Below are positions 12,083-16,255 of a stretch of DNA of 64,000 nt, piece by piece. Positions within the stretch are counted from its first letter, which is position 1, and every line of letters starts with the position of its first letter. The position numbers were made by a program, and so were the translations under genes. The notes beneath the pieces were generated by a model. It ran no database searches. It was not told the DNA's origin and worked only from the letters and a program-made list of their open reading frames with translations. This stretch comes from Methylobacterium amylolyticum (GTDB taxonomy: Bacteria; Pseudomonadota; Alphaproteobacteria; Rhizobiales; Beijerinckiaceae), in NCBI RefSeq assembly GCF_030700245.1, contig NZ_JAUYZI010000019.1, positions 1 through 64,000 of the forward strand. Reading direction: 5' to 3'.

Positions 12083-12589
12083 ATGGACATGACTGACGAT
12101 TATCGAAGGCACGGCCCCGACATCATCGAGTTCACGGGCGACATCGTTGCGGCGTACGTGTCGAACAACCCGGTGCCGGTGTCTGAATTGCCGGCGCTGA
12201 TCACGCGCGTGCACGCGGCGATCAGCGGCCTGGGCATGGGCGGGGTGGGTGCGGCCCCCGCAGAGGCCGAGGTCGAGAAGCCCACGCCGGCCCAGATCCG
12301 CAGGTCGGTGCAGCCGGACGGCATCGTCAGCTTTCTCGATGGCCGGGCCTACAAGACGCTCAAGCGCCACCTCACCAGCCAAGGGCTGACGCCGGACGGC
12401 TACCGCGCCCGCTACGGCCTGCCGGCCGACTACCCGATGGTGGCCCCAGCCTACAGCCAGGCGCGCTCGAATCTCGCCAAGGCGATCGGCCTCGGCCAGC
12501 CCGGCGCCATGGCCGAGCGCGAGACCTGGGGTGACGACGACAAACGGGACACCGGTGGTGAGTCCAAGGGGCGCCGCAGGGCTGCCTGA
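12083..12589 (+). CDS. MucR/Ros-family transcriptional regulator with degraded zinc ligands
   Basis: A 168-residue protein. The N-terminus IIEFTGDIVAAYVSNN and VSELPALITRVHAAI is the conserved MucR/Ros opening. The DNA-binding part is GIVSFLDGRAYKTLKRHLTS followed by LTPDGYRARYGLPADYPMV. Relative to Ros (Cys, Cys, His, His), the Cys positions are Ser and Asp and the last His is Gln, leaving only the RH of LKRHL. Zinc-free relatives of this type (the Ml proteins of Mesorhizobium) are known. MucR proteins control exopolysaccharide, motility and cell cycle genes in Rhizobiales. An alternative ATG lies two codons downstream. Confidence 0.9.
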   Translation: MDMTDDYRRHGPDIIEFTGDIVAAYVSNNPVPVSELPALITRVHAAISGLGMGGVGAAPAEAEVEKPTPAQIRRSVQPDGIVSFLDGRAYKTLKRHLTSQGLTPDGYRARYGLPADYPMVAPAYSQARSNLAKAIGLGQPGAMAERETWGDDDKRDTGGESKGRRRAA

Positions 12590-12746
12590 CGTCTGCCCCG
12601 GCCGTCGCGCTGCCGCTTCGGAGGATTGCACCCGTCGATGCGCGAGCGTGAAGGTTTCGGAAGGTGCTGTGATGGCCGGCCGGGCGTCCGACCGCGGCAC
12701 TTCCCGGCCGCCCCGCGTTGATGGTGAAACGCGGGAGACACCACAC

Positions 12747-13049
12747 ATGAGCGACGCGCAACGGCTGCTCTACGCCAGCGCCAACGGCGACCGCTGGTTC
12801 CTCTGCCGGGGCGACCGGCCCGCCGAAGTCTACGTGCTGCACGCGCCGAATGCGCCCTCCGGCGGCCAGGTCTCCCGGGTCGATCTCGGACACTTCCTCG
12901 CCGCCGAGCCGGAAGGGCCTCAGCAGCAGGCCCTGCTCGGCCTCATCGGCGCGCTGGTCGAGCGGAGCGAGGTTCCTCCGGCCAGCGGAGCCGTCCCCGA
13001 GCCCGGCGCCTCGGCCGCAGAGCCGACGCCGGGCGAGGCCCTGGGCTGA
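12747..13049 (+). CDS. Conserved hypothetical protein of 100 residues
   Basis: Starts at the ATG 12747 with GGGAGA upstream. The ordered part reads LLYASANGDRWFLCRG then VYVLHAPNAPSGG, VDLGHFL and QALLGLIGAL, followed by a Pro/Ala-rich tail. It is soluble, with no signal or membrane segment. I recall similar short proteins in Rhizobiales, often acidic and of unknown role. It follows the MucR gene by about 160 bases in the same direction but is not clearly in one operon. Confidence 0.6.
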   Translation: MSDAQRLLYASANGDRWFLCRGDRPAEVYVLHAPNAPSGGQVSRVDLGHFLAAEPEGPQQQALLGLIGALVERSEVPPASGAVPEPGASAAEPTPGEALG

Positions 13050-13156
13050 CGCTCCCCGGCGGCGGGGAGACGGGTTCGGCGGAGTGCGCGCCGCGAGAAT
13101 CGAGAGGTGCGCCCGATCCGCCAAGGCGGGCGTCGCCCGGACCGCGGCTCACGGGA

Positions 13157-13762
13157 TCAGAGCCGAGCGAACGCTGCTGCCGCACTGCCCAGCATCCGAT
13201 ATCCGTCGGTGTGGCAGGCGCCGAGGCCGCATTGCAGGATCGCGGAGACGAGGTTGAGGGCGCAGAGGGTCAGCACGTACAGGCCGACGTAGCCGGCGAC
13301 GCGCACCAGTCGCGGCGACGGGACCCGGCCTTCCGCCGTTCCTCCGACGACGGCGACCTGTGCCGCCAGCGCAGCGATCACCGCCAGGGCGATCAGCACC
13401 GACCAGACCGGCATGTGCAGCCCGAGCACGGCGTCGCCGACATACTCGTGGCCGGGGCGGGGACAGATGTCGAGCAGGGTCTGGCGTCCTGCGATCACCA
13501 GCAGCGACAGGGCGCCGAGCAGGGCGACGCCGACGCCCCGGCCCCGGTCGTCGGGTCGGAAGTGACGGATCAGCCCGAAGCACACGCCGAACAGGGCGAC
13601 GCGCTGCAGCAGGCAGAGCGGGCAGGGCAACTCGCCGTCGACGTATTGCAGGACCATCGCCACCGTCAGCACGGCGGCGAGGCCGGTCAGCATGGCCAGA
13701 AGCCCGAGATCGCCGAGACGGGCGAGGTCCGCGCCGGGCGCGGTGCGTGCGGCCCGAATCAT
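13157..13762 (-). CDS. dsbB: Disulfide bond formation protein B family, DsbB-like
   Basis: A 201-residue inner-membrane protein of the family that reoxidises a periplasmic thiol oxidase and passes electrons to quinone. The first periplasmic pair is CPLC at residues 47-50, after the first membrane helix. Two further membrane helices follow a Cys at residue 100 (ICPRPGHE). Near the C-terminus a CGLGAC pair follows the last helix, a feature of this DsbB subgroup. I placed the start at the ATG 13760-13762, which overlaps the stop of the upstream small membrane gene. That coupling supports the start. Confidence 0.86.
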   Translation of the reverse strand: MIRAARTAPGADLARLGDLGLLAMLTGLAAVLTVAMVLQYVDGELPCPLCLLQRVALFGVCFGLIRHFRPDDRGRGVGVALLGALSLLVIAGRQTLLDICPRPGHEYVGDAVLGLHMPVWSVLIALAVIAALAAQVAVVGGTAEGRVPSPRLVRVAGYVGLYVLTLCALNLVSAILQCGLGACHTDGYRMLGSAAAAFARL

Positions 13763-13929
13763 CCCCGGAGCCACGGCATGCGGAACCCGTCGACCGGGCT
13801 GTCAATCTCGAACAGGAACAGGCCGGTCGAGAGCGCGAAGCAGAGGGCGAGGGCGGCGACCGCGAGCCTGCCGCGGCCGCCGTACAGCGCCCCGAGAGCG
13901 GCCGTCATCGCCGCGAAGCACAAGACCAT
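13759..13929 (-). CDS. Small membrane protein, DUF5993-like, coupled to dsbB
   Basis: A 56-residue frame starting at the ATG 13927-13929 and ending with a TGA that overlaps the dsbB start. It has two hydrophobic stretches (MVLCFAAMTAALGALYG and LAVAALALCFALSTGLFLF) separated by a basic GGRGR turn, then a short tail DSPVDGFRMPWLRG. DUF5993 proteins of this size and topology are commonly found immediately before dsbB-like genes. The role is unknown, but the coupling suggests an accessory subunit. The gene is easy to miss because of its length. Confidence 0.68.
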   Translation of the reverse strand: MVLCFAAMTAALGALYGGRGRLAVAALALCFALSTGLFLFEIDSPVDGFRMPWLRG

Positions 13930-14063
13930 CAAGGCCGCCCATCCTCGTCGAGGCGCGTCGAGGCCGCCGCGCGTCGCCCCGACCGCGCCGCCTCACCGTA
14001 CCGCGTGCCGACGCGGGGGCGCCAGCCGGGATCGACGCGGCGCGGGACGCGCCCGCGCGCGGC

Positions 14064-14092
14064 TTGCCGAACAACCTGCGATAGTTTTTATT
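14064..14092 (+). promoter_or_regulatory. Candidate promoter for the small RNA at about 14094-14175
   Basis: A TTGCCG at 14064-14069 is followed after exactly 17 bases by TTTATT at 14087-14092, a fair sigma-70-like pair in an otherwise very GC-rich stretch. Initiation a few bases further would place the RNA 5' end just before the hairpin that starts at 14097. Confidence 0.45.
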
Positions 14093-14093
14093 C

Positions 14094-14175
14094 GGGCCCT
14101 GGATCCTCCTGCCGGTCCAGGGAACCTCGACAGCAAGATCAACGCGCCGCCGCCCCGCCGCAGCGGGGCTTTTTT
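14094..14175 (+). ncRNA. Candidate trans-acting small RNA with an anti-Shine-Dalgarno loop
   Basis: About 80 bases bounded by a candidate promoter and a strong intrinsic terminator, with no open reading frame between. The 5' hairpin has a perfect 7-bp stem, CCCTGGA (14097-14103) with TCCAGGG (14116-14122). Its 12-base loop is TCCTCCTGCCGG, so UCCUCCU is exposed. A single-stranded linker of about 30 bases follows, then the terminator hairpin. Rhizobial small RNAs of the alpha-r14 type regulate mRNAs through such exposed CU-rich loops that mask ribosome sites. I cannot assign this RNA to a known family; expression is not shown by sequence. Confidence 0.5.
14153..14175 (+). terminator. Intrinsic terminator of the candidate small RNA
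   Basis: Stem CCCCGC (14153-14158) with GCGGGG (14163-14168), a 4-base loop, then C and six T (14170-14175). No plus-strand protein gene ends within 1 kb upstream, which is why a non-coding transcript is proposed here. Confidence 0.85.
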
Positions 14176-14368
14176 GTGGCGAGAAACGGTTCAGATACGT
14201 CCGCTGACCGAGATCAGGAGCTGGAGCGCGCGGGATGTGCTCAAGCGCACCTTGCCGCATACGGTGTCTGGACCTCGCCGGTGCTGTTGCAGACCTGCAC
14301 TATCGCCACGCTTCGGTCTGGCGTCCTGTCGCGCGGCACCCATCCCACCCCCGGGATACGAGGATCTG

Positions 14369-15205
14369 ATGATCAAGAAACTTCTTCTGGCCAGCGCCGC
14401 CACGGCGCTCACGACCGTCGCCGCCTCTGCGGCGGACCTTCCGCGCCGCGCGGCGCCGCCGCCGGTGTTCGCGCCGGTGCCGGTGTTCACCTGGACGGGC
14501 GCCTACTTCGGTATCAACGCCGGCTACGCCTTCGACGCCAGCAGCCGCAACACCGGCTCGGCCTTCGGCGTCCCCGCCCCCTTCGCCGCCCCCGGCACCA
14601 TCGCCGTCTTCCGCAACCGCAGCCAGGACGGCTTCTCCGGCGGTGGCCAGGTCGGATACAACTTCCAGTTCACCCCGGGCTCGGGCGTGGTCGTGGGCAT
14701 CGAGGCCGACGCCCAGTACCTCGACTTCGGCCGCAACCGGAACAGCGCCTTCATCGCCGGCGGCCTCGCCCCGGGCTACTACGTCACCGACCCGCGCGGC
14801 CTCTCCAGCCTCGACTTCTTCGGCACCGTGCGCGGCCGCCTCGGCTACGCCTTCGACCGCACCCTCGTGTACGGCACCGGCGGCTTCGCCTACGGCTCGG
14901 GCAGCGCCGACCGCTCGTTCGGCGGCTACGCCGGCAACGACAGCTTCCGCACCGGCTACGCCGTCGGCGGCGGCATCGAGTACGCGCTCCCCACCGACTC
15001 GTTCCTGAACTTCTTCCGCTCCAGTGCGGTCACGCTCAAGGTCGAGGGCCTGTACGTCAACCTCGACCGCGGCACCCGCAACCAGGGCGCCCTGGTCGTC
15101 AACGCCGCCAACCTCCTGCCGGTCGCCTTCAGCCCGGTGGGCCGCCGCGACGACGAGTTCGCCGTCGTCCGCGCAGGCCTGAACTACAAGTTCGGATCCT
15201 ACTGA
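14369..15205 (+). CDS. Outer membrane beta-barrel protein, Omp25/Omp31-like
   Basis: A 278-residue protein with a signal peptide (MIKKLLLASAATALTTVAAS, cut after ASA) and a Pro-rich linker (RRAAPPPVFAPVPVF). A barrel of alternating strands follows, beginning with FTWTGAYFGINAGYAF, the standard opening of the Rhizobiales Omp25/porin-family barrel. It continues through VGYNFQF, VVGIEADAQYLDFG, VRGRLGYAFDRTLVYGTGGFAYG and YAVGGGIEYAL. It ends in an aromatic strand AGLNYKFGSY, as required for barrel assembly. An AGGA ribosome site precedes the ATG at 14369. Such proteins are abundant structural or immunogenic envelope proteins. A strong terminator follows. Confidence 0.9.
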   Translation: MIKKLLLASAATALTTVAASAADLPRRAAPPPVFAPVPVFTWTGAYFGINAGYAFDASSRNTGSAFGVPAPFAAPGTIAVFRNRSQDGFSGGGQVGYNFQFTPGSGVVVGIEADAQYLDFGRNRNSAFIAGGLAPGYYVTDPRGLSSLDFFGTVRGRLGYAFDRTLVYGTGGFAYGSGSADRSFGGYAGNDSFRTGYAVGGGIEYALPTDSFLNFFRSSAVTLKVEGLYVNLDRGTRNQGALVVNAANLLPVAFSPVGRRDDEFAVVRAGLNYKFGSY

Positions 15206-15271
15206 GGTCGGTGCCTGATCGGTCGGCCTGAGCATCCCCAGCCCGATCAGACTGGCGGCTTGGCCGAGAAG

Positions 15272-15299
15272 CGCCCCGGGATCCGTCCCGGGGCGTTTT
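15272..15299 (+). terminator. Intrinsic terminator of the Omp25-like gene
   Basis: A perfect 10-bp stem, CGCCCCGGGA (15272-15281) with TCCCGGGGCG (15286-15295), and a 4-base loop. It is followed by TTTTC and TTT. Confidence 0.92.
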
Positions 15300-15368
15300 C
15301 TTTGACCGGCGCATCGGCCGCCGGCGAATGGTCGGACGGCCGGTCCGGGTGCCGACGCGCAGGTTCTT

Positions 15369-15587
15369 CTACCCGAGTTCCGGTGTACGCCCCGTCGGCG
15401 GGGAGTCCTGCACCACCGGTGCCCCGAAGACCGACATGAGGGTGCGCACGTCGTCGATGCAGGCCTCGGCCTCTGCCCGGGTCATCAGGCCCTGGCGCCG
15501 GAAGATCCGTCTCGGACGGATGATCGCGACCACGTCGAAGCGGCCGTCCGGCCTGTCGATCACGTGGCAATTCACGGGTCGTGCCAT
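15369..15587 (-). CDS. Small conserved hypothetical protein of 72 residues
   Basis: Frame from the ATG 15585-15587 beginning MARPVNCHVIDRPDGRFDVV, then AIIRPRRIFRRQGLMTRAEA and IDDVRTLMSVFGAPVVQD. It looks like a compact soluble alpha/beta fold. I do not know its function. The open frame continues far upstream on the minus strand only as unlikely sequence, so the internal ATG is preferred. The gene lies alone between the omp terminator and the YidB-like gene. Confidence 0.6.
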   Translation of the reverse strand: MARPVNCHVIDRPDGRFDVVAIIRPRRIFRRQGLMTRAEAEACIDDVRTLMSVFGAPVVQDSPPTGRTPELG

Positions 15588-15769
15588 AACCCTCGATCCC
15601 GCACGGGAGAGCGCCACCCGCGACCAACGTTTCACGCGCTCTAGGCTCGGCAATGCCCGGTCGGTCCCCCCGGTTGCGTCCGCCGGCAGGAGATTTGCGC
15701 GCTCACGTGCGGAGGAGGGCGACCCGCCGGATCGAGCGGGCCGCCACGCGTCGGACGGGGCGGGCGCGG

Positions 15770-16255
15770 TCAGCCGAGGGCCGGGACGCGCCCGTCGGGG
15801 GAGTAGCGGTCCACCGCGCCGGGAAGCTCGCGCGACAGCCGCGTCAGTAGCTCGCTCCGGCTGAGGCCCGTCCGCTCTTCGAGGGCTGCCAGGGTCTCGG
15901 GGCCGATCGCCCGTTCGAGATCGGCCGCCGGCATGTCGCGGTTGGGGCCGTGGTCGATCCACGACTTCGCGGTCTCGCCGTGGCCGCCCTTGGTGAAATG
16001 CTCGACGATCTCGCCGAGGCCGCTGGCGATCAGCCCGCCGATGCCCGCCGCACCGGCGCCGCCCAGCAGGCGCTCCAGGTTGGCCGGCATCCCCGATCCG
16101 GTTCCGCCGGCGCTGCTCGGCACCTGCGGTACGGGCGACGGGTGCCTGTCCTTGCCGGAGCCGCCGAGCCAATCGGCGATCTTGTCGCGGTTCTGGTAGC
16201 CGGCGACAGCCAGCAGCCCGAGCAGGGCCGTCATCGAGGGGTATCCCTTGCTCAT
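15770..16255 (-). CDS. YidB/DUF937-family protein
   Basis: A 161-residue soluble protein. The N-terminal part has MTALLGLLAVAGYQNRDKIADWLG and a Pro/Ser linker. The C-terminal part has the DUF937/YidB signature: GIGGLIASGLGEIVEHFTKG, a KSWIDHGPNRDMP turn (usually SW---G-N--I), then LERAIGPETLAAL and GLSRSELLTRLSRELPGAVD. The function of YidB proteins is poorly known. The ATG at 16253-16255 has AAGGA upstream. It appears to be a single-gene unit. Confidence 0.87.
   Translation of the reverse strand: MSKGYPSMTALLGLLAVAGYQNRDKIADWLGGSGKDRHPSPVPQVPSSAGGTGSGMPANLERLLGGAGAAGIGGLIASGLGEIVEHFTKGGHGETAKSWIDHGPNRDMPAADLERAIGPETLAALEERTGLSRSELLTRLSRELPGAVDRYSPDGRVPALG

Follow-up and report, generated by a model that had tools for sequence, protein, structure and literature searches.

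The analysed stretch of DNA (the window; 64,000 nt from Methylobacterium amylolyticum) holds at 14064-14175 on the plus strand a compact unit consisting of a candidate promoter, a hairpin and an intrinsic terminator, located between two protein-coding genes. Upstream, the unit is bounded by a divergent DsbB-like gene (13157-13774, minus strand; PF02600, E 5.7e-12), whose top-scoring match in another genome of the genus shares 39% identity. A DUF5993-like ORF of 56 aa is found on the same strand (13759-13929; E 1.1e-4, 22.8 bits, under the 27-bit cut-off), and this ORF and the DsbB-like gene, for which the searched genus genomes contain no close relative, were perhaps acquired. The orthology of dsbB was considered as a synteny anchor and discarded as useless, given that matches are found in 44 of the 111 genomes and that the best one elsewhere is 39% identical. 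Downstream, the gene at 14369-15205 (plus strand) codes for a protein of 278 aa that is predicted from its fold to be an outer-membrane beta-barrel. Specifically, the predicted model has a mean pLDDT of 70, long strands predominate, and the best solved match is the membrane domain of OmpA (Foldseek E 2.7e-6, TM-score 0.35/0.51). The preliminary description called this neighbour “Omp25-like”; the protein is without a Pfam or NCBIfam match. Counting fragments, the own genome has 24 matches to the 278-aa protein, and the copy number of this family is unsure because several members stop at contig ends (C35, C15, C83, C51 and others).

The region that separates the unit from this gene (14176-14368, plus strand; delineated by the relatives' profile and BLAST) is conserved upstream of the outer-membrane protein gene, and the flank profile of the relatives matches 14173-14350 with an E of 3.8e-24. 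Since the match is common to paralogues devoid of the unit, it is evidence of position only. Conserved elements at 14200-14350, namely GATGTGCTCnAnCGCAC and TGTTGCA...TGCACTATCGC, are likewise present in paralogues without the unit. The region leads into the translation start region of the neighbour (14354-14371, plus strand), which reads ...ACGAGGATCTGATG in the window and AGAGGACCAGATG in most unit-bearing relatives.

The candidate promoter (14064-14092, plus strand, as read from the letters) is composed of TTGCCG (14064-14069) and TTTATT (14087-14092) separated by a 17-nt spacer. It is weak: 8 of the 12 consensus bases are matched by our own count, and a scanner operated at a threshold of 9 reported no promoter in 12500-16000; of the spaced -35/-10 pair described earlier, the letters and the spacing are there, but the score falls under the threshold. 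The hairpin (14097-14122, plus strand; letters and folding) corresponds to the 7-bp stem and 12-base loop described before, with arms CCCTGGA (14097-14103) and TCCAGGG (14116-14122) enclosing the loop TCCTCCTGCCGG (14104-14115), which contains UCCUCCU. If the named promoter is real, transcription would start near 14099-14101, within the 5' arm, and the stem would be shortened by about 3 pairs. The intrinsic terminator, earlier assigned to 14153-14175, is seen at 14152-14175 (plus strand), with the stem GCCCCGC/GCGGGGC (7-bp G+C; 14152-14169) followed by six T (14170-14175). The predicted small RNA would span 14096-14175 on the plus strand, about 75-80 nt with an approximate 5' end, according to covariance models built without the window unit. 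ATG, GTG and TTG are all absent from 14096-14152, and the longer plus-strand frames that span the unit were listed and read as G+C-rich open frames and not as genes. The nearest plus-strand ORF taken for a gene on the 5' side ends at 13049, 1,015 bases before 14064, in agreement with the earlier remark that no plus-strand gene ends within 1 kb upstream.

When folded by themselves, the terminator and the hairpin (14095-14124) are matched in stability by 4 and 15 of 1000 shuffles, respectively. The full 81-nt RNA does not stand out in its folding (z -1.01; 41 of 200 shuffles as good), and the fold of the segment 14092-14151 is equalled by 252 of 1000 shuffles. In the predicted fold, the hairpin extends to a 9-pair stem with an 8-nt loop (CUCCUGCC), and UCCUCCU is unpaired with a mean value of 0.71. 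The terminator is the sole one in the 3.5 kb from 12500 to 16000, where shuffles contain 1.0 on average, and TCCTCC or CCTCCT is found in the loop of 1 of the 266 perfect 7-bp hairpins of the 64 kb (loop 6-14 nt, both strands).

Comparison of the regions upstream of the outer-membrane protein gene yielded six loci in relatives with a like unit in a like position (L053, L057, L059, L061, L066 and L070). The units share an order in which CTTGCGnG..GGATYTAA is followed by GAAGCTTCCTGGTTGGTCCTGGGAA and by a G+C-rich terminator, and their hairpin conforms to UUCCY-GGUUGGUCCU-RGGAA. The distance from unit start to start codon is 273 nt in the window and 275, 277 and 278 nt in the three relatives compared. 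A pattern search that allowed up to 3 mismatches hit 42 places in 36 of the 111 genomes of the genus: 29 were kept as units, in 28 genomes, on account of a promoter-like stretch and a terminator, 12 were rejected after reading, and one (G132) was dropped unread. The covariance model R1 was built from these 29 units, with the window left out, and 40 of its weak places, picked by hand and in some cases because of the gene downstream, were fetched: 4 are units beside an outer-membrane protein gene (L157, L171, L172 and L173), 3 are units elsewhere (L152-L154, the same as L194-L196), and 33 are neither, including L162, where the loop word lies near the hairpin but outside it. Later searches added L254, L312, L316, L317 and L318, for a total of 41 units in 38 of the 111 genus genomes, window excluded, mostly beside an outer-membrane protein gene. 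Moreover, a scan of 397 genomes of the bacterial family, from 43 genera and evenly drawn from a larger group, gave a match in 10 genomes, of which 9 belong to Methylobacterium; in the match outside this genus (G158), the loop word UGGUCCU was found to be absent on reading. In 22 of the 29 units (e.g., L081), a box, ATTAATSTTAAC, precedes the unit by about 70 nt and could be the site of a regulator; it is absent upstream of the window unit.

The word UGGUCCU is present in 41 of the 41 units and, in the 25 of 25 units that were aligned, is the sole invariant block before the terminator, a constancy that is partly due to ascertainment because the queries that retrieved most units included the loop word. 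The word lies in loops of 10-12 nt, and the stems were freer to vary than the loop word under the queries used. Specifically, they differ among units as UUCCU/GGGAA, UUCCC/GGGAA, UUCCU/AGGAA, AGAUUUCC/GGAAAUCU, UAGCUUC/GGGGCUA and CCCG/CGGG, and the hairpin of L157 forms 3 pairs at best. The last of these stems, in the form CCCG-UGCUGGUCCU-CGGG, occurs in L194 (2686-2766), L195, L196 and L316, the latter of which reaches a contig end. Across 26 units, 95.5% of the cells are paired, a proportion reached by 0 of 500 shuffles, and both-sided changes amount to 6 cells (0 of 500 shuffles), all within the terminator stem. The hairpin pairs vary on one side only, and further pair types show no excess in the same 26 units (91 of 500 shuffles have as many).

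The adjacent gene carries AGGACC before its AUG in 34 of the 36 units whose start was read, which are 28 of the 29 common-form units plus L157, L171, L172, L173, L254 and L312. The search pattern for the common-form starts itself included AGGACC (with up to 5 mismatches allowed; it missed the start of L108), and their agreement is therefore in part ascertainment. L317 and L318 have the loop word, the terminator and an outer-membrane-protein-like gene downstream, and their start regions are without AGGACC. For 14 of the 29 common-form units, for five diverged units and for the window unit, the complementarity between loop and start region was scored against background windows drawn from the same gene. 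In five groups, the match of 7-10 bases at the start region exceeds every background window (L083, 0/150; L092, 0/116; L117, 0/147; L157, L171 and L172, each 0/147; L173, 0/146), and in the other common-form units it is equalled by 0-7 of 67-152 background windows, as it is by 10 of 152 in L254. The 7-nt match of the common form is reached by 12% of hairpin shuffles. AGGACC is also present in 30 of 69 start regions of named family members, read by rule; these derive from 80 named gene loci, of which 8 were removed manually and 3 lacked a start, and a few of the 69 starts are misread. Many family members (e.g., L257, L265 and L277) display GCTGGGGATCA before the start codon in place of AGGACC. 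In G095, whose unit lies away from such a gene, one outer-membrane protein start region carries CCAGGACCAGG. Conversely, AGGACCANATG shows no genome-wide enrichment over the reversed pattern, and duplex energies computed with RNAs and targets swapped do not favour the true partners and lend no support to co-evolution. Altogether, the UGGUCCU loops and the AGGACC sites would fit a small RNA that pairs with outer-membrane protein mRNAs.

The window unit departs from its relatives at this word. R1 aligns the window hairpin to the UUCCY-GGUUGGUCCU-RGGAA of the relatives with the loop word gone: the loop TCCTCCTGCCGG is without UGGUCCU, and GGUCC remains mainly in the 3' arm. On the 64 kb, R1 scores the window unit at 25.4 bits (E 9.5e-6), a value to be read against the bare terminators elsewhere that also reach about 25 bits, and the unit is the best place of R1 in its own genome (E 9.7e-4). 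Two further models built without the window give 21.6 bits (R2, E 0.0032) and 22.9 bits (R3, E 5.6e-5) on the 64 kb, R3 having kept 3 base pairs only and being mostly sequence, and neither of them reported the unit in whole-genome scans at an E of 0.001. A profile of promoter plus hairpin, from which both the window and the terminator were left out, ranks 14061-14128 first in the 64 kb (E 0.2, against 15 for the next) and gives 7.3 bits at the window unit, a score that none of 2000 dinucleotide shuffles attained (best 7.0); promoter-only and hairpin-only profiles did not detect the unit in the 64 kb. With the terminator profile of the relatives, the top hit in the window is at 14159-14174 (E 0.022).

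The window unit lies about 275 nt 5' of an outer-membrane beta-barrel gene on the same strand, with an intrinsic terminator soon after the hairpin, as do most units of the relatives. Because its loop is without UGGUCCU, the unit was filed as a diverged positional homologue and not as a member. The preliminary description took the exposed UCCUCCU for the working part; that it is a conserved working part is not supported, since the constant loop word of the relatives is UGGUCCU, which the window unit lacks. The site of the neighbour is altered as well, AGGATCT replacing the AGGACCA of the relatives, so that it reads GAGGATCTG. The best match of the window loop to its own start region is 6 nt, equalled in 22 of 152 background windows, and the 7-nt match GAUCCUC:GAGGAUC is equalled by about 10% of shuffles. 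The window hairpin itself, at up to 3 mismatches, recurs 15 times elsewhere, in 12 of the 110 other genomes, and none of these places aligned with the window past the hairpin stretch by BLAST; contexts were read for 4 of the 15, and 2 of these 4 are coding. Similarly, a DNA search with the window unit matched 3 of 60 other genomes, in terminator letters only, and searches of the own genome, at the thresholds applied, turned up no second copy bearing the loop. In a tree built from 30 gene starts, the window remains unplaced, on a branch of 0.21, against a median of 0.046.

The earlier proposal of a small RNA gene remains the best reading of the unit, because many relatives carry a like-built unit in the same position. 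We consider it moderately probable that the unit is a small regulatory RNA gene of about 75-80 nt that descends, by fast evolution, from an RNA gene retained in many Methylobacterium species, mostly 5' of an outer-membrane beta-barrel gene, and we judge the locus to be a real small-RNA gene locus that has lost the defining loop of its family. In the relatives, a single hairpin would present UGGUCCU in its 10-12-nt loop on an RNA ended by the terminator, and the most likely pairing partner of the loop is AGGACC, located just 5' of the start codon in several mRNAs for outer-membrane proteins. This pairing would block ribosome entry in trans, probably with the aid of Hfq, which the own genome of the window encodes (PF17209, E 2.3e-32). 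The suggested link with an outer-membrane protein mRNA is plausible. MicA and RybB are examples of RNAs that repress outer-membrane protein mRNAs. In the window species, locus, promoter position and terminator appear to be kept, the loop is now UCCUCCUGCC and the site of the neighbour is GAGGAUC; the RNA, if it is transcribed and the copy still functions, could pair at GAGGAUC via GAUCCUC, or at other ribosome sites.

The changed loop and neighbour site of the window would reflect either a switch of the seed or decay. Decay, in which the locus derives from a small-RNA gene whose function was lost and the new hairpin and loop are products of drift in G+C-rich DNA, is rather unlikely, albeit with several observations that point its way: the loop word is lost and the AGGACCA of the neighbour altered, the upstream box is lost beside a dsbB that has nothing closely related in the searched genus genomes, the own genome yielded no further loop-bearing copy at the search thresholds applied, the tree branch is long, and the whole-RNA fold is unremarkable. 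Nevertheless, terminator and hairpin singly beat nearly all shuffles, and the position and the length of the unit are kept, which argues against a relic. A seed switch from UGGUCCU to UCCUCCU together with AGGACCA to AGGATCT, whereby RNA and target co-evolved to GAUCCUC:GAGGAUC, is a doubtful possibility; if true, it would have happened in a family that otherwise keeps its seed unchanged in all units found in the genus.

It is improbable that the unit belongs to a leader, with the promoter at 14064 starting the outer-membrane protein mRNA and the terminator functioning as a cis attenuator. Unit and gene do share the strand and a near-fixed distance in most relatives. However, the outer-membrane protein gene probably has a promoter of its own in the region of about 190 nt upstream, because paralogues without the unit retain it; in two units, 341 and 363 nt separate the hairpin from the gene start, compared with 217-242 nt otherwise; and L194-L196 are without an outer-membrane protein gene of this family in the 6.0-6.5 kb around each, L194 being convergent to an ABC transporter gene.

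A lone terminator next to an accidental hairpin, with no RNA gene at all, is very unlikely. In its favour, about one terminator is expected by a simple scan of such a stretch, no promoter was found by the scanner, many bare terminators reach about 25 bits with R1, and the promoter and hairpin profiles fail singly; the positional homology with the units of the relatives and the joint promoter and hairpin profile speak against chance. Least probable is an RNA like alpha-r14 or MmgR that targets ribosome sites via UCCUCCU. In its favour, UCCUCCU stands in a loop, and 1 of the 266 7-bp hairpins of the window has a loop of this kind; against it, the loop is not conserved in the relatives, the unit has one hairpin, not three, and there is no Rfam match to either RNA.

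Rfam reports one match above threshold in the 64-kb window, a tRNA elsewhere, and nothing near threshold at the unit, where the best hit is anti-hemB (17.1 of 49.5 bits) and alpha-r14 is missing from the matches even at an E of 10; for a relative's unit (L070), it gives a partial asX2 hit on the opposite strand (21.4 of 70 bits, E 3.1). In the available portion of PMC10746234, the alpha-r14 family is described with three hairpins that each bear CCUCCUCCC unpaired. The kinship with alpha-r14-type RNAs put forward in the preliminary description was rejected, since the window unit has one hairpin and a terminator instead of three hairpins with CCUCCUCCC, and no Rfam match. The resemblance is one of design: as far as the available parts of PMC10746234 and PMC7143759 describe it, alpha-r14 (NfeR1 of Sinorhizobium meliloti) is also alphaproteobacterial, with a constant loop word, highly variable stems, a sigma-70-type promoter and start-region pairing, whereas the word is UGGUCCU in the Methylobacterium relatives and UCCUCCU in the window. 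MmgR (alpha-r8), in the part of PMC7143759 available, is similar in its 77 nt and in an anti-ribosome-site motif in the first loop, but it has three stem-loops, and the window unit is without an Rfam match. VrrA of Vibrio cholerae (PMC2628432) is one of the RNAs that repress outer-membrane protein mRNAs; the likeness lies in the proposed action, pairing near the 5' end of such a message, and VrrA differs in its 140 nt. Rhizobiales RNA families with members in the Methylobacteriaceae, such as SmelC671 (PMC3927594), are reported from the same bacterial family; the comparison with them went through Rfam, and one of them may overlap with the UGGUCCU family.

The findings point to a Methylobacterium family of small RNAs that has no near-threshold counterpart in Rfam and no description among the literature matches listed, and that is associated with a large surface-protein family. 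With a constant loop and matching sites, the targets can be tested directly, and the window copy is an example from nature of a seed that was either lost or switched. Lastly, the window contains a gene for a ROS/MUCR regulator on the plus strand (12083-12589; PF05443, E 8.5e-41).
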